From an uncultured bacterium (GTDB lineage: Bacteria > Bacillota > Clostridia > Lachnospirales > Lachnospiraceae): a stretch of DNA of 38,676 nucleotides. A program made the position numbers and the translations under genes. A model generated the notes under the pieces. It ran no database searches. It had not been told where the DNA came from and was given only the letters and a program-made list of their open reading frames with translations. Location: assembly GCA_945828315.1 (NCBI GenBank), contig CALZQA010000016.1, positions 1 to 38,676 on the forward strand, written 5' to 3'. This document shows, in pieces, positions 26,565 to 37,978 of the stretch. Numbering within the stretch: the stretch's first letter is position 1; each line of letters opens with the position of its first letter.

Positions 26565-27707
26565 ATGAATATTACGATCAATCAATTAAAAGATTTAAAT
26601 AAAAGCGATTACCAGATCATCGACATCCGTGACGAGATCGAGATTTCTCACGGAGCCATCCCGGGCGCGGTGGCGCTGCGGCCGGAGGAGATTGAGTCAA
26701 GTGAAAAAGCAGACCGCTCCAAAAAGCTTGTGATCTGCTGCAGCAGAGGCAAAAACAGTGTGGAAGTGGCGGAAAACCTGAGAGAAAAAGGGTATGACGC
26801 ATGCAGTCTCGAGGGCGGATATGCGGCGTGGCTTCTGGATTATTTTCAGGAACAGGAGCAGAGCGAAGATGAAGAGTTCGCAAAAAATGTGGAGCTGAGT
26901 CTGCGGAAGAAGTTCAAGAAAAAGATCTGGTCAAAATTCACAAAGGCGATCAACACTTATGAGCTGGTCAAGCCGGGTGATCGGATCGCAGTGTGCATTT
27001 CCGGCGGAAAAGATTCCATGCTCATGGCAAAATGCTTTCAGGAATTGAAGCTGCACAATAAATTTGATTTTGAAGTGAAGTTTCTTGTGATGGATCCGGG
27101 TTACAGTCCGGCAAACCGCCGGGTGATCGAGGAAAATGCGAGAAGGCTCCACATCCCGATCACGATCTTTGAGTCCGACATTTTTGAGAGTGTCTACAAT
27201 ATTGAGAAAAATCCCTGCTATCTGTGTGCCAGAATGCGCAGAGGACATCTGTACCATTATGCACAGGAGCTTGGCTGCAACAAGATCGCGCTGGGTCATC
27301 ACTACGATGATGTGATCGAGACGATCCTGATGGGCATGCTTTACGGTGCGCAGATCCAGTCCATGATGCCGAAGCTGCACAGTACTAATTTCGAGGGAAT
27401 GGAACTGATCCGCCCACTGTATCTGGTAAGGGAGGACGATATCAAAGCATGGCGGGACTACAACGGACTTCGTTTTATCCAGTGCGCCTGCAAGTTCACG
27501 GACACATGCACGACCTGTAATAATGAGGAAAACCGTTCCAAGCGGATGGAGATCAAGGAGCTGATCCGGACGCTGAAAGAGGTCAATCCTTATGTGGAGG
27601 GTAATATTTTTAAGAGTGTGGAAAATGTAAATCTGGACACGATGATCTGCTATAAAACAGGCGGAGAAAAGCATCATTTTTTGGAGACTTATGATAATAT
27701 GGAATAG
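26565..27707 (+). CDS. Rhodanese domain fused to TtcA-like tRNA thiolation ATPase
   Basis: This encodes 380 residues from ATG 26565. Residues 1-95 form a rhodanese domain (IIDIRDEIE, then VICCSRGKNS with the sulfur-carrying cysteine). From about 120 on comes an N-type ATP pyrophosphatase with the PP-loop SGGKDS, ALGHHYDDVIETILMG, and the cysteine pairs CYLCARMRR and CTTC typical of TtcA enzymes, which thiolate C32 of tRNA and can carry an Fe-S cluster. The fusion would let a persulfide sulfur pass directly to the thiolase. It sits behind tcdA, in a sulfur-rich neighbourhood. Target tRNA base is inferred from family only. Confidence 0.85.
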   Translation: MNITINQLKDLNKSDYQIIDIRDEIEISHGAIPGAVALRPEEIESSEKADRSKKLVICCSRGKNSVEVAENLREKGYDACSLEGGYAAWLLDYFQEQEQSEDEEFAKNVELSLRKKFKKKIWSKFTKAINTYELVKPGDRIAVCISGGKDSMLMAKCFQELKLHNKFDFEVKFLVMDPGYSPANRRVIEENARRLHIPITIFESDIFESVYNIEKNPCYLCARMRRGHLYHYAQELGCNKIALGHHYDDVIETILMGMLYGAQIQSMMPKLHSTNFEGMELIRPLYLVREDDIKAWRDYNGLRFIQCACKFTDTCTTCNNEENRSKRMEIKELIRTLKEVNPYVEGNIFKSVENVNLDTMICYKTGGEKHHFLETYDNME

Positions 27708-27715
27708 AGTTATCT

Positions 27716-27762
27716 CTGCCCGACCTTCACTTGCAGTGGAAGCTCGGGCAGTATTTATTTTG
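27716..27762 (+). terminator. Rho-independent terminator
   Basis: CTGCCCGA (27716-27723) pairs with TCGGGCAG (27744-27751), extended by an inner TTCAC/GTGGAA stem, and is followed by a T-rich tail. Confidence 0.8.
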
Positions 27763-27868
27763 CATGTTATAGGATAAAACTATGACAGGCTCTAGAAAAT
27801 TGAAATTATACAAATGCTACATTTAGGGTTATAGTAAAGAAAAATGTAATCGAATGAGGTGATATACT

Positions 27869-29074
27869 ATGGACGAAAAACGCGAACGGAACCTTGATTT
27901 TGACAAAATTGTCGATCGGAAAAACACCGGTTGTCTGAAATATGATTTTGCAAAGCAGCGCGGAATGCCGGAGGATGTGCTGCCTTTGTGGGTGGCGGAT
28001 ATGGATTTTGAGACGTCGTCTTATATACAGGATGCGCTCACTGAGCGGATCAAACACGGAATCTTTGGATACAGTGAGCCCACAGATTCCTACTTTGAGA
28101 GTGTCAGTGGATGGATGCGTGAACGGCATCACTGGGAGGTAAAACGGCAGTGGCTGGTCAACACACCGGGTGTTGTATTTGCGCTGGCAACAGCGGTCAA
28201 GGCATACACAGAGCCGGGAGATGCAGTGTTGATCCAGCAACCGGTCTACTATCCGTTTTCAGAGGTCATCAAGGATGCCGGCAGACGCGTCGTGAGCAAT
28301 ACGCTGTATCTGGGTGACGACAACCGCTATCATATTGACTTTGATGATTTTGAAAAGAAGATCATCGATGAGCAGGTGAAATTGTTTCTGTTGTGCAGCC
28401 CTCACAACCCGGTTGCGCGTGTCTGGACGAGGGAGGAACTGGAACAGCTCGGCGATATCTGCCTGAAGCATGGCGTTCTTGTTGTGGCAGATGAGATCCA
28501 CAATGATTTTGTTTTCAAGGGTGAGCACACGGTGTTTGCCACTGTGAAAAAGGAGTTTGAGGACAACTGTATCATCTGCACGGCACCAAGTAAGACGTTC
28601 AATCTTGCCAGTATGCTAAACTCCAATATTTTTATACCCAACCAGCAGCTGCGCCGGAAATTCAGAAAAGAAGTAAATGCAGTGGGTCTGAGTCAGATTG
28701 GTGTGCTGGGCTTTGTGGCTTGCGAGGCTGCTTACCGGGATGGCGGCGAATGGTATGAGGCGATGATGCGTTATGTGGCTGATAACATTGCATTTACAAA
28801 GAAATATGTAGAGGAAAATCTGCCCGGCGTACATATGACAGACCATGAGGGCACGTATCTCGTCTGGCTGGATTTCCGTGAGATCGGACTAAGTGCAGAT
28901 GAATTGGACGACTTGATCATCCATAAGGCGAAACTGTGGCTGGACAGCGGAAAGATCTTTGGCGAGAGCGGAAACTGTTTCCAGCGGATCAATGTGGCAT
29001 GTCCCCGTGCGACACTGCTCGATGCGCTGGAGCGGATCCGGAAAGCGTTGCAGGAAAATGAAGGCTGTGCCTAA
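27869..29074 (+). CDS. patB: MalY/PatB family PLP-dependent C-S lyase
   Basis: This is a 401-residue fold-type I aminotransferase-like enzyme. It has PLWVADMDFE near the N-terminus, FLLCSPHNPVARVW, VVADEIHNDFVF, and APSKTFNLAS with the PLP lysine K242; all are typical of MalY/PatB cystathionine beta-lyases, which release thiol or sulfide, pyruvate and ammonia from cystathionine or cysteine S-conjugates. GAGGTG precedes the ATG. No CCTA..TAGG box was seen in front of it, so it may not be in the Rrf2 set. It fits the sulfur theme of the right half of the window. Confidence 0.88.
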   Translation: MDEKRERNLDFDKIVDRKNTGCLKYDFAKQRGMPEDVLPLWVADMDFETSSYIQDALTERIKHGIFGYSEPTDSYFESVSGWMRERHHWEVKRQWLVNTPGVVFALATAVKAYTEPGDAVLIQQPVYYPFSEVIKDAGRRVVSNTLYLGDDNRYHIDFDDFEKKIIDEQVKLFLLCSPHNPVARVWTREELEQLGDICLKHGVLVVADEIHNDFVFKGEHTVFATVKKEFEDNCIICTAPSKTFNLASMLNSNIFIPNQQLRRKFRKEVNAVGLSQIGVLGFVACEAAYRDGGEWYEAMMRYVADNIAFTKKYVEENLPGVHMTDHEGTYLVWLDFREIGLSADELDDLIIHKAKLWLDSGKIFGESGNCFQRINVACPRATLLDALERIRKALQENEGCA

Positions 29075-29127
29075 ACAGTGTGAGGGCTGATCTGCTACAG
29101 ACTGTCAGGCAAAGGAGGTATCAAACA

Positions 29128-29523
29128 ATGACCAGAGAAGAAGCATGGGATTTATTAAAGGAATACAATCAGGATGAATTTCATCTGGAGCACGCTGAGA
29201 TCGTCGGCAAGACAATGCGTTATTTTGCGGGAAAGCTGGGGTATGAGGATGAGCAGGATTTTTAGGAAGTCGTAGGCATCCTGCACGATCTGGATTTTGA
29301 GATGTATCCGGAGCAGCACTGCATCAAAGAGCAGGAGCTCATGCGCCCGTCAAAGAGTGTGCAGGATCTGGAACTGAAATCTGTAAAGAAAAAATATAAG
29401 AGCAAGGGCTTCGCCGCCGGCTGCTCCCGAGAAGTGATCGAGCGCGGTGCCGAGATGCTCGGGTGGACGCTGGATGACCTGATCACACAGACGATCGAGG
29501 CGCTGCGGACATTTCGGCCCTGA
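29128..29523 (+). pseudogene. HD-domain hydrolase gene broken by an amber codon and an internal deletion
   Basis: The frame starts at ATG 29128 behind AAGGAGG and reads MTREEAWDLLKEYNQDEFHLEHAEI onward, in pieces, then meets TAG at 29263-29265. The same frame continues with EVVGILHDLDFEMYPEQHCIKEQE to a TGA at 29521-29523. The HD signature (HLEH and LHDLD) is split by the stop. The codon was probably TGG (Trp) before one G-to-A change. Further on, QELMRPSKSVQDLELKS joins two parts that in relatives (from memory) are separated by about 45-50 residues, including an SHGYG region. It was probably a small HD phosphohydrolase. Two independent lesions make real decay likely. Confidence 0.78.
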
Positions 29524-29527
29524 GAAT

Positions 29528-29570
29528 ATACCCATTGACGGTTACGCTGTTGATGGGTATCTTTGTCAAC
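29528..29570 (+). promoter_or_regulatory. Promoter within a 33-bp dyad, upstream of the PLP enzyme gene
   Basis: The promoter is TTGACG (29535-29540), 17 bases, TATCTT (29558-29563). It lies in the dyad ATACCCAT (29528-29535), N17, ATGGGTAT (29553-29560), followed by TTGTCAAC (29563-29570). The same dyad, spacing and downstream motif occur at 30889-30931. A shared operator is the natural reading. Confidence 0.7.
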
Positions 29571-29594
29571 ACAAAATAAAGAGGAGGCATGAGA

Positions 29595-30791
29595 ATGGCG
29601 AAGAAAGAGAACAAGTATAAAGGTTATGATATCACCACACAGGCAATCCATACCGGCACAGATTATGATCTGGAGACAGGTGCTGTCCGGCGTCCGCTTC
29701 ATATGGCAAACAGTTTCAAACTGCCGGATGACTTATCGCAGGTCAATTATTCTTCCACAGATCTTCTGATGTATGCAAGAAACGGAAATCCGAATCAACA
29801 CTGGCTGGAGGAAAAGATTGCCGCACTGCACGATGCGGATGATGCGATCGTGCTGGCCAGCGGAGTTGCGGCGCTGCATGCACTGTTCTGGACGCTTCTG
29901 GAATCAGGAGACAGGGTGGTGTATCCAAATGTCAGTTATATGGCTGTATACAGAATGTTCCATGAGCTGTTTAACCGTAAATTCAAAGTGGAAACAGTCA
30001 TGGTTGATATGACAGACCTTGAAGCCGTGAAGAAAGCAATTACACCGGGTACAAAACTGGTTCATATCGAAACTCCGGACAATCCTACAAACGGAATTAC
30101 GGACATTGCTGCGATTGCAGAGATCGCACATCAAAACGGAGCGGTGTTGTCTGTGGATAACACATTCGCTTCCCCTTTCAACCAGAAGCCGTTGGAACTG
30201 GGGGCTGATTTTGTGATCGAAGCCATTACAAAATACATCAATGGACACGGGGATGCACAGGGTGGGGCGATCATTTCCAATGATCTGGAGACGATGGACC
30301 GCATCCGGTATGAGGCACAGGTAAATGTGGGATCTGTGATCAGTCCCTTTAATGCATGGCAGATTTTTCGCGGTTCAGTTACGTTTCCGCTTCGCATGGA
30401 ACGGATCAACCGATCTGCGCAAAAGATCGCCGAATGGCTGGAGAAAAGGGAGAATGTCACGTTTGTATCATATCCGGGACTTGCCAGTCATCCGGGTCAT
30501 GAGACAGCGGTAAAACAGATGAAAAACGGCTATGGAGGAGTGATCTCCTTCGGATTGCATACAGATGATAAAACAGTGGAACGTTTCTGTGCAGCCCTGA
30601 AGGTAGTGACCTTTGCAGTTTCTCTCGGACATGATGAGAGTTTGATTTTTCCGCAGCCCAGCTATGATGAGCGGATCCATCTCTATCCGGAAAGGTTTCG
30701 GAAAGGCTTTATCCGTTTCAGTGTGGGGCTGGAAGATCCGGAGGATATTATCCGGGATATTGATCAGGCACTGAAAAGTGTAGGACTGTAA
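29595..30791 (+). CDS. Cys/Met metabolism PLP-dependent enzyme (gamma-lyase or gamma-synthase-like)
   Basis: This encodes 398 residues from ATG 29595, seven bases after GAGGAGG; ATG 29589 is too close to that site. Fold-type I features: YARNGNP (Y60, R62), the PLP-stacking region PNVSYMAVYRMF, LSVDNTFASPF, and AITKYINGHGDAQGG with Schiff-base lysine K213. Length suits cystathionine gamma-synthase, cystathionine gamma-lyase or methionine gamma-lyase. The usual LYGGT or LYGCT after the stacking Tyr reads SYMAV here, so specificity is uncertain. It has its own promoter inside a dyad shared with the downstream cysteine operon, which suggests that it works with that operon, perhaps in trans-sulfuration or release of sulfide. 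Confidence 0.85.
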   Translation: MAKKENKYKGYDITTQAIHTGTDYDLETGAVRRPLHMANSFKLPDDLSQVNYSSTDLLMYARNGNPNQHWLEEKIAALHDADDAIVLASGVAALHALFWTLLESGDRVVYPNVSYMAVYRMFHELFNRKFKVETVMVDMTDLEAVKKAITPGTKLVHIETPDNPTNGITDIAAIAEIAHQNGAVLSVDNTFASPFNQKPLELGADFVIEAITKYINGHGDAQGGAIISNDLETMDRIRYEAQVNVGSVISPFNAWQIFRGSVTFPLRMERINRSAQKIAEWLEKRENVTFVSYPGLASHPGHETAVKQMKNGYGGVISFGLHTDDKTVERFCAALKVVTFAVSLGHDESLIFPQPSYDERIHLYPERFRKGFIRFSVGLEDPEDIIRDIDQALKSVGL

Positions 30792-30888
30792 TAGACAGGG
30801 CGGAAAGCCCGATCATTCGATGGTAACTGATGCGTTATAGTTAAATGCTATAACAAGTAAAAGAAAACAGGTATTAGTAAATAACAGG

Positions 30889-30931
30889 ATACCCATTGAC
30901 ATCTCAGATGTCGATGGGTATAATTGTCAAC
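30889..30931 (+). promoter_or_regulatory. Consensus promoter inside a 33-bp dyad, for the tRNA-like element and cysteine operon
   Basis: TTGACA (30896-30901), 17 bases, TATAAT (30919-30924): a perfect sigma-A consensus. The dyad is ATACCCAT (30889-30896), N17, ATGGGTAT (30914-30921), extended inside by GACATC/GATGTC. TTGTCAAC follows at 30924-30931. Such a strong promoter is likely to be held down by a repressor. Confidence 0.85.
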
Positions 30932-30946
30932 ATGAATCACACAAAA

Positions 30947-30963
30947 CCTATTTGAAAAGTAGG
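30947..30963 (+). promoter_or_regulatory. Rrf2/CymR-like operator in the leader
   Basis: CCTA (30947-30950), nine bases, TAGG (30960-30963), within AACCTATTTGAAAAGTAGG. It is about 15 bases downstream of the predicted transcription start, the same placement as the boxes of the rrf2 gene and the second metY. Confidence 0.65.
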
Positions 30964-30974
30964 AAAACAAAAAG

Positions 30975-31044
30975 GATGTTGTAGCCGCAGGAATGGCATA
31001 GGTTTGCAAAACCGAAGTTGGTGGTTCGAGTCCGCCCGGCATCA
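30975..31044 (+). tRNA. tRNA-Cys(GCA)-like gene or element, atypical
   Basis: A 70-base cloverleaf can be drawn. The acceptor is 30975-30981 with 31037-31043 (7 bp, two G-U). The D arm is GCCG/TGGC around 30984-30997, with a short loop containing GG. The anticodon arm is 30999-31015 with loop TTGCAAA (anticodon GCA at 31006-31008, Cys). A four-base variable loop follows, then a T arm of GGTGG/CCGCC with canonical loop TTCGAGT. Odd points: an A-G mismatch in the anticodon stem (31000 with 31014), C instead of A at D-loop position 14, discriminator A at 31044 where bacterial tRNA-Cys normally has U73, and no encoded CCA. It may be a functional variant, a regulatory tRNA mimic or a decayed copy. 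Confidence 0.6.
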
Positions 31045-31046
31045 TT

Positions 31047-31085
31047 TCTATGGATCCCCATTCGTGATAAGGGGGAATTCATAGA
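31047..31085 (+). other. Strong hairpin between tRNA-like element and first operon gene
   Basis: TCTATG (31047-31052) pairs with CATAGA (31080-31085), and TCCCC with GGGGA further in, giving about 13 pairs with one or two bulges. No T run follows, so it is not a classical terminator. It may protect the 5' end of the mRNA after release of the tRNA-like part, or act in control. Confidence 0.7.
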
Positions 31086-31112
31086 TCAGAAAGAAAGTAA
31101 GGACAAAAAGAT

Positions 31113-32441
31113 ATGGATCAAATAGAAAAAAAAATAGTCAGACTGGTCGATGAGCATCGTGATGAAATCGTAGCATTTGGACGTGATATATATACGCATG
31201 CGGAGTTGGGCTACAAAGAGTTTCGTACCAGTGAAAAATTCAATAGCTTTATAAAAGATAAGGTTTCCGGGTTGCAGACAGGAATCGCAATTACTGGAAC
31301 AAAAGCTTATATCAATGAAGATAAAAAAGATAATTTTTCCCTTGCATTGATTGGAGAACTCGATGCGCTGCGGATTCCTAATCACAAATATGCAAATCCG
31401 GAAACACAGGGTGCACATTGTTGCGGACATCATGCACAACTGACAGGCCTTGTCGGAGCAGCTTTTGCTTTAACAGATCCTGAAGTAGCAGCGGCATTGG
31501 ATGGTCAGCTGGTTTTTGTGACTACTCCGGCTGAGGAATACGGTGAACTGGAATTTAAAAACAGTCTCGTTGAGCAGGGCAAGATCCGATACGGCGGTGG
31601 TAAGTGTGAGATGATTCGAATAGGCGCGTTTGACGATATTGATGCAGCTGTTGCCCACCATATTTCTATGGATGGTATCCGGATAGGATCCGGAAGCTGT
31701 AACGGATTTGTATCAAAAGTGATCCGCATAAAAGGCAAAGGTGCTCATGCAGCAGGTGCGAAGGAGGAAGGAATCAATGCACTCTATGCGGCAAATCTTG
31801 GTCTGCAGGCGCTTGCATTTAATAAAGATACCTTTTATGAAAAGGATTGCGTGAGAGTACATCCGATCATGACAAAAGGTGGAGATCTTGTGAATGTTGT
31901 TCCGGAGGAAGCAGTGATAGAAACTCTGGTAAGAGGAAAAACATTGGAAGCGTTTGCAGATGCAGCGAGAAAGACAGACCGGTCCTTTAAAGGTGGCGCA
32001 ATTGCGCTGGGAGCAGGATATCGGATCGAGACGATGCCGGGCTATCTGCCGGGAGTAGGGCAGAATGTTCCGGAGGAAATGATAGATGTGATTACATCGG
32101 CGGCAGAAGGAAAGCCGGTGACAGTCATTCCAAAGGAAACACATGATTGCGGCTCTACAGATCTGGGAGATCTGGAACATATGATGCCAGTACTCACCTT
32201 TTATACCGGTGGTGCTTCCGGAAGTGGTTTACATGCCTCTGATTTTGATATTATCGATGAGGATGAGGCGTATGTTCTGACAGCAAAGTTTTATGCGCTG
32301 ACAGCGTATCGCCTGTTAAAAGACAATGCCAGGGTTGCAAAAAAGGTAAAAGAACAATACAGGCCGATATTTGCAAATAAGGAAGAGTATATCGATTTTA
32401 TGGAAAAGTTTTATTCAGTTGAGGAAGCAGAAATTCAATAG
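31113..32441 (+). CDS. M20 family metallo-amidohydrolase
   Basis: This is a 442-residue M20-type amidohydrolase. It has ALIGELDALRIP, the metal motif AHCCGHHAQ (C104, H106), TPAEEYGE with the Glu pair, AVAHHIS, and a C-terminal GSGLHASDF supplying a metal His. The layout resembles AbgB-like and N-acyl or N-carbamoyl amino acid hydrolases, which cleave an amide to free the amino acid. Being directly followed by an ATC-hydrolase family gene, it could act on N-carbamoyl- or N-acyl-cysteine; in Pseudomonas the L-ATC route uses just such a second hydrolase. This pairing is inference. It is first in the leader-controlled operon, behind GTAAGGA. Confidence 0.88.
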   Translation: MDQIEKKIVRLVDEHRDEIVAFGRDIYTHAELGYKEFRTSEKFNSFIKDKVSGLQTGIAITGTKAYINEDKKDNFSLALIGELDALRIPNHKYANPETQGAHCCGHHAQLTGLVGAAFALTDPEVAAALDGQLVFVTTPAEEYGELEFKNSLVEQGKIRYGGGKCEMIRIGAFDDIDAAVAHHISMDGIRIGSGSCNGFVSKVIRIKGKGAHAAGAKEEGINALYAANLGLQALAFNKDTFYEKDCVRVHPIMTKGGDLVNVVPEEAVIETLVRGKTLEAFADAARKTDRSFKGGAIALGAGYRIETMPGYLPGVGQNVPEEMIDVITSAAEGKPVTVIPKETHDCGSTDLGDLEHMMPVLTFYTGGASGSGLHASDFDIIDEDEAYVLTAKFYALTAYRLLKDNARVAKKVKEQYRPIFANKEEYIDFMEKFYSVEEAEIQ

Positions 32442-32455
32442 AAAGGAGAATAATT

Positions 32456-32989
32456 ATGGGAAAAGAGTCTTATCGGATCACAGGAACAGTCGACAGAGAG
32501 TTGATGGTTGACCAAATTCGAAAGGCGGCAAGACAGTTTGCAATGCAGTACTTCCATTTTTGTAAAACACTATATGAAAGATATGGGAAAGAGGCTGCGA
32601 AGGATATTGTGAGACAAACGGTTCATGAGTTGGCTTTGGACAGATCTGAACAGATCCGGACAATATCACTTGCCAAAGGTAAAAAAGCAGACAGTGTGTC
32701 AGATTTTATGTCGGATATTGATCTGCCCTTTGAGGGATGGATCGCAGAGTGGGGAGAAGATCATTGCCCGTATGCGGAGGTATGGCGGAAATATTTCGAT
32801 GAATATCCGTGGTTTAAAGAATTTGCTTTATTTTACTGTGATGTGATCGATACATCGACGATTGAAAACTATTCAAAATGTTTATCTCATCGTATTACGC
32901 AAAATGTTATGGTGGAAGGAACTTCTTGTGAAAGAGAATATTTTGAGAGCGATGATGTAAAGGAAGGCAGGTATACATATGGCAGCTGA
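32456..32989 (+). CDS. L-2-amino-thiazoline-4-carboxylate (ATC) hydrolase family protein
   Basis: This encodes 177 residues with the features I associate with the ATC hydrolase family: EDHCPYAEVW (H103, C104), FALFYCDVID (C128), and NYSKCLSHRITQNVMVEGTSCERE (C142, H145, C158, in pieces). Characterised members open the thiazoline ring of L-ATC to N-carbamoyl-cysteine, a step to cysteine; many clostridial members have unknown substrates. AAAGGAGAA precedes the ATG, 14 bases after the M20 gene. It overlaps the permease gene by 11 bases, so the genes are tightly co-expressed. Family call is good; substrate is not established. Confidence 0.75.
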   Translation: MGKESYRITGTVDRELMVDQIRKAARQFAMQYFHFCKTLYERYGKEAAKDIVRQTVHELALDRSEQIRTISLAKGKKADSVSDFMSDIDLPFEGWIAEWGEDHCPYAEVWRKYFDEYPWFKEFALFYCDVIDTSTIENYSKCLSHRITQNVMVEGTSCEREYFESDDVKEGRYTYGS

Positions 32990-33809
32990 GAGAAGTGAAA
33001 AACAGGTGACAAAGGAGGATACCAGACCGGCAGTAGTCGGGAAAAAGAAATTCTCGTGGATCAATGCTGTGCAGGTTATTACATTAATCGCTTTGCTGGC
33101 ATATATGCAAGTAGTCGTGGACACAGGAAGGATCAGTAAAGTATTCATCGCGAGCCCTACGATGATCGTACAGGAGGCTGTGAAGATCATAACAGACGGT
33201 ACGCTGCTGCCTCATCTGATCCTCACGCTGGAAGAGGTGCTCGTGGGATATGCACTGGCGGTGGCGGTGGGAATCATCGTGGCACTGCTCTGGACCTTAT
33301 TTCCAAAGCTGGAGGCATATATGGATGTGTTTTGTGCAGCAATCATGGCAGTGCCCAAGACAGCGATTCTTCCGTTGTTGATCCTTTGGTTCGGTATCGG
33401 ATTTAAATCTAAGGTGGTTCTGGTATTTTTGTTCTCTGTATTTCAGATTTTATATAACACTGTTACGGGAGCAAAGCAGACAAATATCAAATATTTAAAG
33501 GTTGCGAAAGTGTTTAAGGCAAACCGATTGCAGACTGTATTCCAGATTATGATTCCTTCAGCACTTCCATCTATGTTTAGTGGTTTGCGGCTTGCGGCGG
33601 CAACGGCATTGACCGGTGTCATTTTTTCAGAGATGCAGTCGGCAAAAGGCGGACTCGGATATTTATTGTATGAAGCACAGAATCTGCTCAATTCAGCAAG
33701 AATGTTTTTTATTGTCATTCTTGTAACCGTGATCTCAGTACTTTTTGTCCAGGTCATTGCACTCATTGAGTTTGCAGTCTGTCATAAATGGCAGAACAAA
33801 ATCCATTAG
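32979..33809 (+). CDS. ABC transporter permease (SsuC/TauC-type), cysteine operon
   Basis: This is a 276-residue permease with an N-terminal cytoplasmic tail (about 28 residues) and about six helices. It has the conserved loop around AKVFKANRLQTVFQIMIPSALP that docks on the ATPase. It resembles permeases of the sulfonate/taurine/pyrimidine importer group, as does the one at 11639. AGGAAGG lies before the ATG. Its overlap with the ATC-hydrolase gene suggests that the imported compound is the substrate of the two hydrolases. Ligand unknown. Confidence 0.9.
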   Translation: MAAERSEKQVTKEDTRPAVVGKKKFSWINAVQVITLIALLAYMQVVVDTGRISKVFIASPTMIVQEAVKIITDGTLLPHLILTLEEVLVGYALAVAVGIIVALLWTLFPKLEAYMDVFCAAIMAVPKTAILPLLILWFGIGFKSKVVLVFLFSVFQILYNTVTGAKQTNIKYLKVAKVFKANRLQTVFQIMIPSALPSMFSGLRLAAATALTGVIFSEMQSAKGGLGYLLYEAQNLLNSARMFFIVILVTVISVLFVQVIALIEFAVCHKWQNKIH

Positions 33810-33861
33810 CTAATGACCGGCTCAGACCGATCAAAATAAATGATTAAGAAGGAGACACATT

Positions 33862-34926
33862 ATGAAAAGAAAAGTATTATCAGTAATTTTAACATTAGCC
33901 ATAACGGCAGGGCTGCTGTCCGGATGTGGTGCTGCATCCGAGACCGGATCAGAGAATAGCGCAGGAACAGCAACAGAGGAAACTTCAGCTGATGCTTCTG
34001 AAGAAGAAACGATCACGATCAATGCCTGCCTGGCAGTCGGAATGACCGGTGCAGTAAATAATTTTGCGATTGAAAAAGGTCTTTACAAGGATCTGGGTAT
34101 AGAATTTAATAATACTCCGTGGACATCAAATGATGAAGTTCTCTCACTGATTACTCGTGGAGAGATTGATTTCGCAGATGGAGATCCTTCTTCCTTTATC
34201 CCCGGAATTGCGAATGGTGTACCTGCAAAACTGGTAGGAAATATGTGGAGATACTCCGGATGCTACTGGCTTGTAGCAAATAACGATATTGAATCAATCG
34301 CTGATCTGAAGGGAAAAACGATCGGTACAGCGGCTGCCGCAGGCGGAATGAAACTTTCTGTATTAAAGATGCTGGAATCAGAGGGACTTACAGAGGATGA
34401 TGTGGAATTAGTTGCAAACGGTGTATACCAGGGAGCCTATGCAACACTGACATCGGGAGAAGTAGACGCAACGATCATTCATAATCCGTATGCTGCATTA
34501 GCTGAGGCAGAGGGAGAAGGTCATATCCTTGGCCGGGCATGGGATTATATTCCGGATTATTATACCGGTACATTACTTGCATCCGACAAGATCATCAATG
34601 AAGATCCTGATAAGCTGCAACGAGTGATCACCGCATATTATACCGTGCATGAGCAGGTGAAAAATGAATACTTCGATGAGTTTATCAAATGGGTATCAGA
34701 GCAGATGAATGTTGATGAAGACGTGATGAGAACAGCCGTAGAATCTGAGAAGGACGTATGGCTGGATTATCCGGTGATTCCGGAAGACCGAGTGAACAAT
34801 ACAGTAGATATTCTTCATCAATACGGCTGGTTAGATGAGAATATTACCGCGGATGGTACATATGACAACACGTTTGCCATAAAGGCAGCAGAAGAATTAG
34901 GAATGGAAGATCCTTATAAAAAATAG
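33862..34926 (+). CDS. ABC substrate-binding lipoprotein, cysteine operon
   Basis: This is a 354-residue lipoprotein with signal peptide and lipobox ending at C22 (LLSGC), then a Ser/Thr/Glu-rich linker (about 25-50). The mature protein is an NMT1/SsuA-like binding protein: GMTGAVNNFAIEKGLYKDLGI, TRGEIDFADGDPSS, and TSGEVDATIIHNPYAAL. AAGAAGGAGA is the ribosome site. Gene order permease, binding protein, ATPase differs from the first importer. The binding pocket sequence is clearly unlike that of the protein at 13355, so the two importers probably take different ligands. Confidence 0.9.
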   Translation: MKRKVLSVILTLAITAGLLSGCGAASETGSENSAGTATEETSADASEEETITINACLAVGMTGAVNNFAIEKGLYKDLGIEFNNTPWTSNDEVLSLITRGEIDFADGDPSSFIPGIANGVPAKLVGNMWRYSGCYWLVANNDIESIADLKGKTIGTAAAAGGMKLSVLKMLESEGLTEDDVELVANGVYQGAYATLTSGEVDATIIHNPYAALAEAEGEGHILGRAWDYIPDYYTGTLLASDKIINEDPDKLQRVITAYYTVHEQVKNEYFDEFIKWVSEQMNVDEDVMRTAVESEKDVWLDYPVIPEDRVNNTVDILHQYGWLDENITADGTYDNTFAIKAAEELGMEDPYKK

Positions 34927-34947
34927 GAACTGATGGGGGAGAATGTA

Positions 34948-35730
34948 ATGCCAACAATAAAAGCAAAGAATATTGAAAAATATTATCAGAGTACAGACGG
35001 AGAACAGGTCCACGCATTGAAGGATATTAGTCTTACTGTTGAGGATGGTGAATTCGTAGCCATTGTAGGACCTTCCGGTTGCGGAAAGAGTACCTTTCTT
35101 GAGATTGTAGCAGGGCTTCTCCCCCACGACGGCGGAGAAGTATATCTGGACGACCAGCTGATAACTGAAACAAGTCGTGAGATCGGAGTTGTATTTCAGG
35201 ATGCCTCTCTTTTTCCGTGGCGTACGATCAAGAGAAATATTGCTTACGGAATGGAGCTCGCGAAGGTTCCAAAGGAAGAACAGGAGAAACGTCTTACACA
35301 TTATATAAAAATGATGAATTTGGAAGGATTTGAAAATAAGTACCCTGCGCAGCTTTCTGGTGGCATGAAGCAGAGAGCAGGAATTGCACGGACGCTTGCT
35401 ATGAATCCGAAAGTGATCTTAATGGATGAACCGTTTAGTGCAGTCGATCATCTGACAAGGTGTACATTGCAGGAAGAGTTGATCAAGATCCACGAGCTGG
35501 AGAAGAAGACGATTCTGTTTGTCACACATGATATCAATGAAGCAGTATTTCTTGCCGACAGAGTGATCCTTTTGAGTCCGCGTCCGTCTGTCATACAGGA
35601 AGAGTATCAGATTAAGCTTCCTTATCCGAGACACAGAGATGATGAATATTTGTCAAAAGTGGCGGCAATGATCATGGCTGATATCAGCCGGGGCAGAAAA
35701 ACGGATGAGGATATTGAGTATTTTATTTAA
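34948..35730 (+). CDS. ABC transporter ATPase, cysteine operon
   Basis: This encodes 260 residues from ATG 34948, behind GGGGGAG; an ATG at 34933 is in frame but overlaps that site. It has Walker A GPSGCGKST (41-49), a Q-loop in VVFQDASLFPWRTI, the signature LSGGMKQR, Walker B VILMDEPFSAVD, and the switch His in FVTHDINEA. It is of the same SsuB/TauB type as the ATPase at 12450. It would drive the permease at 32979. Confidence 0.92.
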   Translation: MPTIKAKNIEKYYQSTDGEQVHALKDISLTVEDGEFVAIVGPSGCGKSTFLEIVAGLLPHDGGEVYLDDQLITETSREIGVVFQDASLFPWRTIKRNIAYGMELAKVPKEEQEKRLTHYIKMMNLEGFENKYPAQLSGGMKQRAGIARTLAMNPKVILMDEPFSAVDHLTRCTLQEELIKIHELEKKTILFVTHDINEAVFLADRVILLSPRPSVIQEEYQIKLPYPRHRDDEYLSKVAAMIMADISRGRKTDEDIEYFI

Positions 35731-35747
35731 CGTACAAGGAGATTATC

Positions 35748-36632
35748 ATGGCAAATATAGATACAAGTATGGAGTATTTACCGAAAGAAGAAGTGATGGC
35801 TATCTGGAATGCTAATTTGAAGCTTACAGATGAAGATTTTCTGGCGATGGATGATGATGAATTTCGTGCCCGTGTGAGAGAGCGTTGCCATCATACCTTG
35901 GAGATTCAGGTTTATCACGCGCAGCACAGAGATCAGAAGCTTTCATCGACGCAGGCAGATTATGCCAAACGCTTATTGCGATTATGGGTTGAAAAAGGTC
36001 TTTCTACAGATCTTCCGGAATATAAGTATGTTTCGTTTTTGATTGAAACTGCTGATAAGCTGGCAGCGGGAGAACATGTAGACTTGTCGTCTTACAAACC
36101 GACACCTGTAACAAAAGAAATGGAGGATACGTTCTTTACAATCTTGAAAGAGCGTCGTTCCGTGAGGGAATTTACGGACGAAGAGGTTCCGGATGAAATA
36201 ATCGACAAGGTTTTAGATGCAGGTCTTTGGGCTGCGCACGGCTGCAATGTGCAGTCAATCAAATATGTGGTTGTTCGGGAAAAGAATGAGCCCGGACTGT
36301 TCAGGGGCAGTGATGTTCCGGGTGGTCCGGTGCATCTGGTGATCTGCCAGGATATGAGATGTTACAGAGCAAATTCTTTTACCCCGCGAAGAAATCAGCT
36401 ATTGGATGCCGGGGCTGCGGGACAGAACATTGTTCTGGCGGCTCATGCAGCGGGATTGGAGGGTGTGTGGCTGACCTTTCCCAATGAAGCATTTTGCGAC
36501 AGATTGAGGGAGAAATTCAAGCTTCCCGAATATATTCGCCTTGTGACATATGTAGATGTAGGATATGGCGCACAAACGCCGCATCCGCCTCTTCGCTGGG
36601 ATGTGAAGGATACCATTCTCGGAAGATTTTAA
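35748..36632 (+). CDS. Nitroreductase family flavoprotein with N-terminal extension
   Basis: This encodes 294 residues. From about 129 on it is a nitroreductase-type FMN domain, with ILKERRSVREFTDEEVPDE (the RRSVR phosphate contact at 136-140) and a later AGAAGQNIVLAAHAAGLEGVW. The first about 120 residues are a mostly helical, acidic extension I do not recognise. Such enzymes use FMN and NAD(P)H on varied substrates, including ring oxidations or reductions; an action on a thiazoline or thiazole ring is only a thought. AAGGAG precedes the ATG, and spacing of 17 bases keeps it in the operon. Confidence 0.82.
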   Translation: MANIDTSMEYLPKEEVMAIWNANLKLTDEDFLAMDDDEFRARVRERCHHTLEIQVYHAQHRDQKLSSTQADYAKRLLRLWVEKGLSTDLPEYKYVSFLIETADKLAAGEHVDLSSYKPTPVTKEMEDTFFTILKERRSVREFTDEEVPDEIIDKVLDAGLWAAHGCNVQSIKYVVVREKNEPGLFRGSDVPGGPVHLVICQDMRCYRANSFTPRRNQLLDAGAAGQNIVLAAHAAGLEGVWLTFPNEAFCDRLREKFKLPEYIRLVTYVDVGYGAQTPHPPLRWDVKDTILGRF

Positions 36633-36644
36633 AGGAGAGCTTTT

Positions 36645-37340
36645 ATGAATATTGTAGTCGTGGGAGGAAGCCGAGGAATCGGAAAGGCAATTGCCACGCA
36701 GCTGGCAGGAGACGGAAATCAAGTCTTAATTGTCGGGAGAAACAGAGAGACACTCGAAAATACCGTAAAAGAGATCGGGAAAAATGCTTCATTTTATCAG
36801 GCGGATATCACAAAAGAAGTGGATAGTCTTGCATTAGCGGAATATGTTAAAACTGAATTTGTCATTGATGGTCTGGTGCTTTCAGCAGCGCAGTTTCCAA
36901 GACAGGAGACGAAAAAATCCGTAATCGAGCCGGATGTTGCGGAGTTATCTTCCATTTTGGAAGCAAATGTAGTGGCCAATTATCGGTTCGTAAAATATCT
37001 GATTCCGTTATTACAAAAACGCATTCATCCACGGATCGTTATTATCGGTTCTACATCCGGAATCAGGCAGGATAAAGGTGGAGTATACGGCATCTCAAAA
37101 TGGGCGCTTGCATCCTATGCATATAACTTAAGAGATGAGTGTAAAGCTTATGGGATAGGTGTATCACTGATTAATCCGGGAGGAACTTTCACAGAGACGC
37201 GGGTTAAAAAATCCGGGGATGATCATAGTCTGTTGGAGAGTAGCGATTTTGGCATTTTGGTTTCAGCATTGTTTCGAATGTCGCCTCAGGCGGTTATGGA
37301 GCGGGTGGATATCAGACCCATTGCTGGCGACACGTATTAA
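36645..37340 (+). CDS. Short-chain dehydrogenase/reductase
   Basis: This is a 231-residue Rossmann-fold oxidoreductase. The cofactor motif is GGSRGIG at 7-13, followed by IVGRNRE, which suggests NADP(H). The catalytic Ser is in IIGSTSG, and the YxxxK motif in YGISKWALASYAYNLRDE. The C-terminus after PGGTFTETR is short. Substrate unknown. It begins 12 bases after the nitroreductase gene behind AAAGGAGAG and is the last gene of the putative cysteine operon; no terminator is seen after it, but a new promoter follows. Confidence 0.88.
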   Translation: MNIVVVGGSRGIGKAIATQLAGDGNQVLIVGRNRETLENTVKEIGKNASFYQADITKEVDSLALAEYVKTEFVIDGLVLSAAQFPRQETKKSVIEPDVAELSSILEANVVANYRFVKYLIPLLQKRIHPRIVIIGSTSGIRQDKGGVYGISKWALASYAYNLRDECKAYGIGVSLINPGGTFTETRVKKSGDDHSLLESSDFGILVSALFRMSPQAVMERVDIRPIAGDTY

Positions 37341-37358
37341 GATCCTTTCTTTTTCTGA

Positions 37359-37417
37359 TTGACAATCTCACACAAATGCGGTAGATTGTTTTTATAACCT
37401 ATAAGTTTACTAGGAAT
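37359..37417 (+). promoter_or_regulatory. Promoter and Rrf2-type operator of the rrf2 gene
   Basis: TTGACA (37359-37364), 17 bases, TAGATT (37382-37387). A dyad ACAATCT (37362-37368)/AGATTGT (37383-37389) overlaps the promoter. The box CCTA (37398-37401), nine bases, TAGG (37411-37414), AAT follows just downstream of the predicted start, which suggests autoregulation. Confidence 0.7.
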
Positions 37418-37477: not shown

Positions 37478-37891
37478 ATGAAGATTTCAACAAAGGGGCG
37501 CTATGCGCTGCGTATTATGATCGATCTGGCACAACATGATGAGGGCGAGGCGATTCCGTTAAAGGAGATCTCCGAACGGCAGGGGATCACCTTGAAATAT
37601 ATGGAGCAGATCATGCCGCTTTTGACCCGTGCAGGCTATGTGCGCAGCTTCCGTGGGAACAACGGAGGATACCTGCTTTCAAAGTCACCGTCGGATTACA
37701 CGGTGGGCGACATTTTGCGCACAACAGAGGGATCACTGGCGCCGATCGCCTGTCTGGAGGATACGCCGAACCGGTGTGAGCGGCGTGAGGAGTGTAAGAC
37801 GTTAAAGTTCTGGGAAGGTCTTTGGCAGACGATCAATGACTATGTGGACGGCACAACGCTGGAACAGCTGGTAAATCAGAAAAATGAATAA
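37478..37891 (+). CDS. Rrf2 family transcriptional regulator (CymR/IscR-like)
   Basis: This is a 137-residue Rrf2 protein. The N-terminal winged helix (MKISTKGRYALRIMIDLAQH, then ISERQGITLKYMEQIMPLL) matches the DNA-binding part of CymR and IscR. The sensor region has C92, C100 and C106 (spacing CX7CX5C), close to the three cysteines that hold the Fe-S cluster in IscR, so it may bind a cluster or sense thiols; B. subtilis CymR works with CysK. CAGGAG precedes the ATG. The CCTA-N9-TAGG box in its own leader and in those of sulfur genes nearby makes it the likely regulator of the set, as repressor of cysteine and methionine genes. Confidence 0.88.
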   Translation: MKISTKGRYALRIMIDLAQHDEGEAIPLKEISERQGITLKYMEQIMPLLTRAGYVRSFRGNNGGYLLSKSPSDYTVGDILRTTEGSLAPIACLEDTPNRCERREECKTLKFWEGLWQTINDYVDGTTLEQLVNQKNE

Positions 37892-37910: not shown

Positions 37911-37946
37911 TTCCTACTTGACAGATAGGAAAATATAGGATATGAT
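37911..37946 (+). promoter_or_regulatory. Promoter of second metY with overlapping Rrf2-type box
   Basis: TTGACA (37918-37923), 17 bases, TATGAT (37941-37946). TTCCTA (37911-37916) and TAGGAA (37926-37931) form a perfect inverted repeat with the same CCTA-N9-TAGG geometry, lying over the -35. Confidence 0.75.
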
Positions 37947-37961
37947 ACATTTAACGAAAAA

Positions 37962-37978
37962 CCTATAGGAAAAGTAGG
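37962..37978 (+). promoter_or_regulatory. Second Rrf2-type box of the second metY
   Basis: CCTA (37962-37965), nine bases, TAGG (37975-37978), followed by AATA. It lies about 10 bases downstream of the predicted transcription start. Confidence 0.7.

Follow-up and report, generated by a model that had tools for sequence, protein, structure and literature searches.

Among the systems closest to the locus described here, two control cysteine genes. The CymR system of Bacillus and Clostridium (Rrf2 family) resembles it in acting on cysteine and sulfur genes, in having an Rrf2-family protein nearby and in placing its operators at promoters, as set out in PMC3828012 and PMC2940859. The cysteine T-box riboswitch of clostridia (PMC2940859) likewise provides joint control of cysteine genes and involves tRNA-Cys. 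In our window (the whole stretch of DNA that was analysed, 38,676 nucleotides), a 33-bp dyad overlaps promoter-like sequences at two places, upstream of a gene for a pyridoxal phosphate (PLP) enzyme and in the leader of a cysteine operon. From the sequence, we consider the dyad to be probably (roughly 60%) a lineage-restricted operator for a shared regulator, itself probably a repressor, of two cysteine/sulfur promoters.

The dyads and their promoters

The two dyads and the features around them are as follows, with G399 denoting the genome of a sister species.

29528..29560, unstranded: dyad 1, ATACCCAT-N17-ATGGGTAT, upstream of the PLP enzyme gene; exact match
29535..29563, plus strand: promoter-like TTGACG-17-TATCTT in dyad 1, sigma-70-like, 9/12 consensus
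29563..29570, plus strand: TTGTCAAC copy 1, overlapping the −10 end; kept in G399
29589..30791, plus strand: PLP enzyme, Cys/Met metabolism family (PF01053)
30889..30921, unstranded: dyad 2, ATACCCATTGACA-N7-TGTCGATGGGTAT, in the cysteine operon leader; exact match
30896..30924, plus strand: promoter-like TTGACA-17-TATAAT in dyad 2, sigma-70-like, 12/12 consensus
30924..30931, plus strand: TTGTCAAC copy 2, overlapping the −10 end; TTGTCACC in G399

A preliminary description of this DNA had reported a repeated dyad with mostly differing internal spacers, enclosing the −35 to −10 region of two promoters and followed at a fixed distance by TTGTCAAC, and all of this was borne out. The pattern ATACCCAT-N17-ATGGGTAT matches at both places with 0 mismatches, and none of 100 dinucleotide shuffles of the window yielded two dyads. 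The repeat exceeds the 8+8 bases of that pattern, with half-sites ATACCCATYRAC; within the genome, the arms of the two dyads are identical and the spacers have diverged. TTGTCAAC starts 35 bases past each dyad start and has no further copy on either strand of the window. Across the 2.6-Mb genome (113 contigs), there are no exact copies besides these two, and seven of the eight weaker sites (2–3 mismatches) fall within stop-free frames of at least 200 aa. Chance origin is ruled out by the shuffles together with the whole-genome scan, and occurrence at many unrelated promoters, which the preliminary description had held would speak against a specific regulator, is not seen in this genome.

Both dyads overlap their promoter core at the same offset, and the hexamers with their 17-base spacer are kept in all four known dyad copies (two here and two in G399). 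The arm bases outside the hexamers, ATACCC and ATGGG, are also identical in all four copies and are symmetric. Conservation of the arms is explained in part by the promoter hexamers alone.

Among its best 25 NCBIfam matches, the PLP enzyme has none above cut-off. The gene preceding dyad 1 (29129–29523) has an in-frame stop and is missing an internal stretch relative to its G399 counterpart, and looks decayed.

The operon leader and the Rrf2-family gene

Behind the promoter in dyad 2, the leader comprises a tRNA-Cys gene flanked by a CCTA-N9-TAGG box and a hairpin, and the operon comes next; the ABC importer is followed in turn by genes for a nitroreductase-type protein, an SDR protein, an Rrf2-family protein and another Cys/Met PLP enzyme.

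30947..30963, unstranded: CCTA-N9-TAGG box, presumed Rrf2/CymR-type site, in the operon leader; also in the G399 leader
30975..31044, plus strand: tRNA-Cys (GCA) in the operon leader (ARAGORN; Rfam RF00005, 45.7 bits)
31047..31085, plus strand: hairpin between tRNA and first gene (−16.4 kcal/mol, z −2.25)
31113..32441, plus strand: M20-type amidohydrolase, operon gene 1 (TIGR01891 above cut-off; PF01546)
32456..32989, plus strand: L-2-amino-thiazoline-4-carboxylate hydrolase-like protein (PF14196, 27.1 bits against a cut-off of 28.1)
32979..35730, plus strand: ABC importer, comprising permease, binding protein and ATPase (PF00528, PF09084, PF00005)
37398..37414, unstranded: CCTA-N9-TAGG box upstream of rrf2
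37478..37891, plus strand: Rrf2-family regulator (PF02082; under the IscR and CymR equivalog cut-offs)
37913..37929, unstranded: CCTA-N9-TAGG box over the promoter of the next gene, of PLP/sulfhydrylase type
37962..37978, unstranded: second CCTA-N9-TAGG box before that gene (38034 onward)

All four copies of CCTA-N9-TAGG in the window stand beside sulfur genes or rrf2. Because one copy lies in the leader, another upstream of rrf2 and a further two upstream of the gene that follows it, the motif is likely to be the site of the Rrf2 protein, a pairing that we infer from position. Neither dyad contains the box, and there is none at the promoter of the PLP gene. At homologous loci, the box occurs within one mismatch upstream of the operon in 7 of 9 cases, to which the exact box of the window adds a tenth locus.

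The tRNA-Cys gene is present in the G399 leader too, and seven other genomes of the family have tRNA-Cys genes (ARAGORN) 83–90% identical to the leader copy. Similar genes lie beside apparent sulfur genes in family genomes and in a phage-labelled record (loci L160–L166 and L148), with neighbors that include radical-SAM, cysK-like and metK-like genes, all named by eye. Placement of tRNA-Cys beside sulfur genes looks like a recurring arrangement. Among the literature matches listed, there was no description of it; PMC8762117 deals with the SepRS route. Separately, short leader ORFs rich in Cys codons were seen upstream of homologous operons at 4 of 9 loci (L051, L055, L056 and L042), as attenuation would predict.

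Occurrence of the dyad in related genomes

Two of ten genomes of the genus carry the dyad at no more than one mismatch, namely our own and G399, which keeps both copies. Dyad 1 of G399 differs at 1 of 33 bases; dyad 2 differs at 4 of 33, all of them in the central 7 (chance 8.6e-4, for a center that was defined after looking). The two contigs that carry the G399 dyads both break off within the PLP gene or at its end, and adjacency of these dyads is inferred. One sister genome is weak phylogenetic evidence for an operator. The locus was compared among our genome, G399, G400 and G401. The Rrf2 protein is 97% identical in G399, 90% in G400 and 93% in G401, and the latter two genomes, in which the dyad was not found, retain CCTA-N9-TAGG. 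A site with 3 mismatches is shared by G400 and G150, the G150 copy lying inside a 587-aa frame.

Several differences in the surrounding DNA were also observed. At this place, G400 and G401 lack a block of about 10 kb (27695–37354) comprising a C–S lyase gene, the PLP gene and the operon, and their sequence continues with rrf2. In G399 (L149), the same leader and rrf2 enclose a cysteine-type operon wholly different from window positions 31113–37340. Behind its leader are genes for a family-3 binding protein, a permease, an ATPase, an EamA transporter and a PALP enzyme (cysteine-synthase type), with two proteins lacking a Pfam match between the PALP enzyme and rrf2. The G399 PLP gene (L150) is without about 150 bases near the contig end, reflecting either a deletion or an assembly error.

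Conservation upstream of orthologues, on which the preliminary description had made its reading depend, was not seen beyond the two dyad-bearing genomes. The dyad was missing, at up to 3 mismatches, from all 11 other PLP loci (those of G400 and G401 and nine more). Of 17 loci that have a related operon or its first gene, 16 likewise lack it; the seventeenth (L050) has a 3-mismatch site that is unrelated and lies at a distance from the operon promoter. We scanned 397 genomes of the family and 392 of the order, overlapping samples that each include our own. With up to 1 mismatch allowed, the 396 other family genomes contained no convincing site; 22 of them had one site each, 17 of the 22 in stop-free frames of 200 aa or more. 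With up to 2 mismatches allowed, the 391 other order genomes had no convincing site either; seven had one site each, five of these in frames of at least 200 aa. Two family sites with a TTGAC promoter-like layout, before a sucrose-hydrolase-like gene (L016) and a recA-like gene (L018), both named by eye, were taken as chance. Because the dyad is absent at the other PLP and operon loci and the scans gave isolated sites only, it is lineage-restricted, known from two genomes, and wide conservation is rejected. A mobile-element origin was considered and set aside: there was no plasmid match, the one phage-labelled record matches the tRNA only and no viral contig has the exact arm pattern.

Regulatory reading, alternatives and known systems

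As we picture it, a trans-acting regulator, most likely a repressor and encoded elsewhere in the genome, would bind the two inverted half-sites that cover the −35 and −10 elements, and the bound protein would shut off the PLP enzyme gene and the cysteine-acquisition operon jointly. The signal may be cysteine or sulfur status. Just downstream of the operon promoter, the CCTA-N9-TAGG box would add a further control through the Rrf2 (CymR/IscR-like) protein, while the PLP promoter would be controlled by the dyad alone. We regard a shared operator as the simplest account because the arms are fixed and the spacers free, the symmetry extends beyond the hexamers and a protein at this position would block RNA polymerase. 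Joint control of the PLP gene and the cysteine operon is a reasonable proposal. The preliminary description had assigned it to a dedicated regulator, and in its favor are the overlap of both dyads with promoters, their retention in G399 and the divergence of the spacers between unchanged arms. No linked regulator gene was found: among the main ORFs scanned in the 27.7–37.35 kb segment that G400 and G401 lack together with the dyads, none matched a DNA-binding family. It had also held the regulator to be distinct from the Rrf2-type protein. This is a plausible hypothesis because the box is different, is absent from the PLP promoter and accompanies Rrf2 orthologues in two genomes where the dyad was not found, although no candidate for the separate protein was found.

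The main rival, in our judgment unlikely, is that the dyads act as RNA hairpins in read-through transcripts of the C–S lyase gene, the PLP gene and the leader, serving processing, stability or message separation, with the promoter overlap secondary. As plus-strand RNA, each dyad folds into a stem of 15 pairs closed by a 3-base loop, at −19.5 and −22.6 kcal/mol (z about −5); folding of the minus strand is weaker, and dyad 1 begins a few bases past a stop codon. Within the outer 13 pairs of all four copies, every stem deviation is a G–U pair on the plus strand, at three positions (9, 10 and 13), shared descent making this count smaller than it appears. An RNA hairpin accounts for this pattern no less well than an operator does; an operator purely at the DNA level does not need G–U pairs. 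However, near-palindromic DNA sites all fold in this way, the hexamers keep their 17-base spacing in every copy and dyad 2 of G399 has lost pairs 14 and 15. Neither dyad has a U-tract or a terminator-like call, and an intrinsic terminator (a GC-containing stem followed by a T run) was dropped as a candidate at either site.

The dyad might instead be a second class of site for the Rrf2 protein itself, making an additional regulator unnecessary. IscR binds two types of site, Rrf2-family sites can be diverse, and in both dyad-bearing genomes the operon lies between the leader and rrf2 even though its body differs. Against this, the presumed Rrf2 box is CCTA-N9-TAGG, which the PLP promoter lacks, and Rrf2 proteins 90–93% identical occur where the dyad was not found; we consider such dual binding quite improbable. 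An old promoter duplication, in which insertion of the PLP gene next to the leader went together with copying of the promoter, would dispense with a dedicated regulator altogether, leaving the arms to inheritance and promoter constraint. The two copies align at 80% over 44–51 bp, the segment is either there in full or missing in full and PLP orthologues (83% identity in DNA to 90% in protein) sit in other contexts elsewhere. Promoter constraint does not demand symmetric arms, however, and bases outside the hexamers are identical in four copies whose spacers diverged, and we give the duplication very little weight. More speculatively, the dyad promoter, Rrf2 box, co-transcribed tRNA-Cys and hairpin could form a portable cysteine control leader that stays put as species exchange the operon behind it. 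A sulfur regulator not described so far, which would recognize either the dyad in DNA or the hairpin that its RNA forms, would link this leader to the PLP gene. We think this unlikely as a whole.

If the dyad does bind a regulator of its own, as in the shared-operator reading that we prefer, cysteine control in this lineage would have a second level in addition to the Rrf2-type protein, with the 33-bp dyad as a ready bait for that regulator. The promoter in dyad 2 would transcribe tRNA-Cys ahead of the cysteine genes, and tRNA and amino-acid supply could be set together.

Among described sites, the IscR type 1 site (ATASYYGACT...AGTCRRSTAT) has, by eye, the same inverted layout of ATAC...GAC and GTC...GTAT. 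The dyad spans 33 bp against 25 bp for IscR, and the ATA–GAC and central spacings differ, again by eye. Among the literature matches listed for the half-site, the top one, on CyuR of Escherichia coli, has a different motif. Unlike the cysteine T-box systems, the window has no T-box at the Rfam gathering threshold, the tRNA being the sole match, and it is the tRNA-Cys gene itself that lies in the leader. Compared with CymR, the dyad is unlike the CCTA-N9-TAGG box that accompanies rrf2, and the PLP promoter carries the dyad only.
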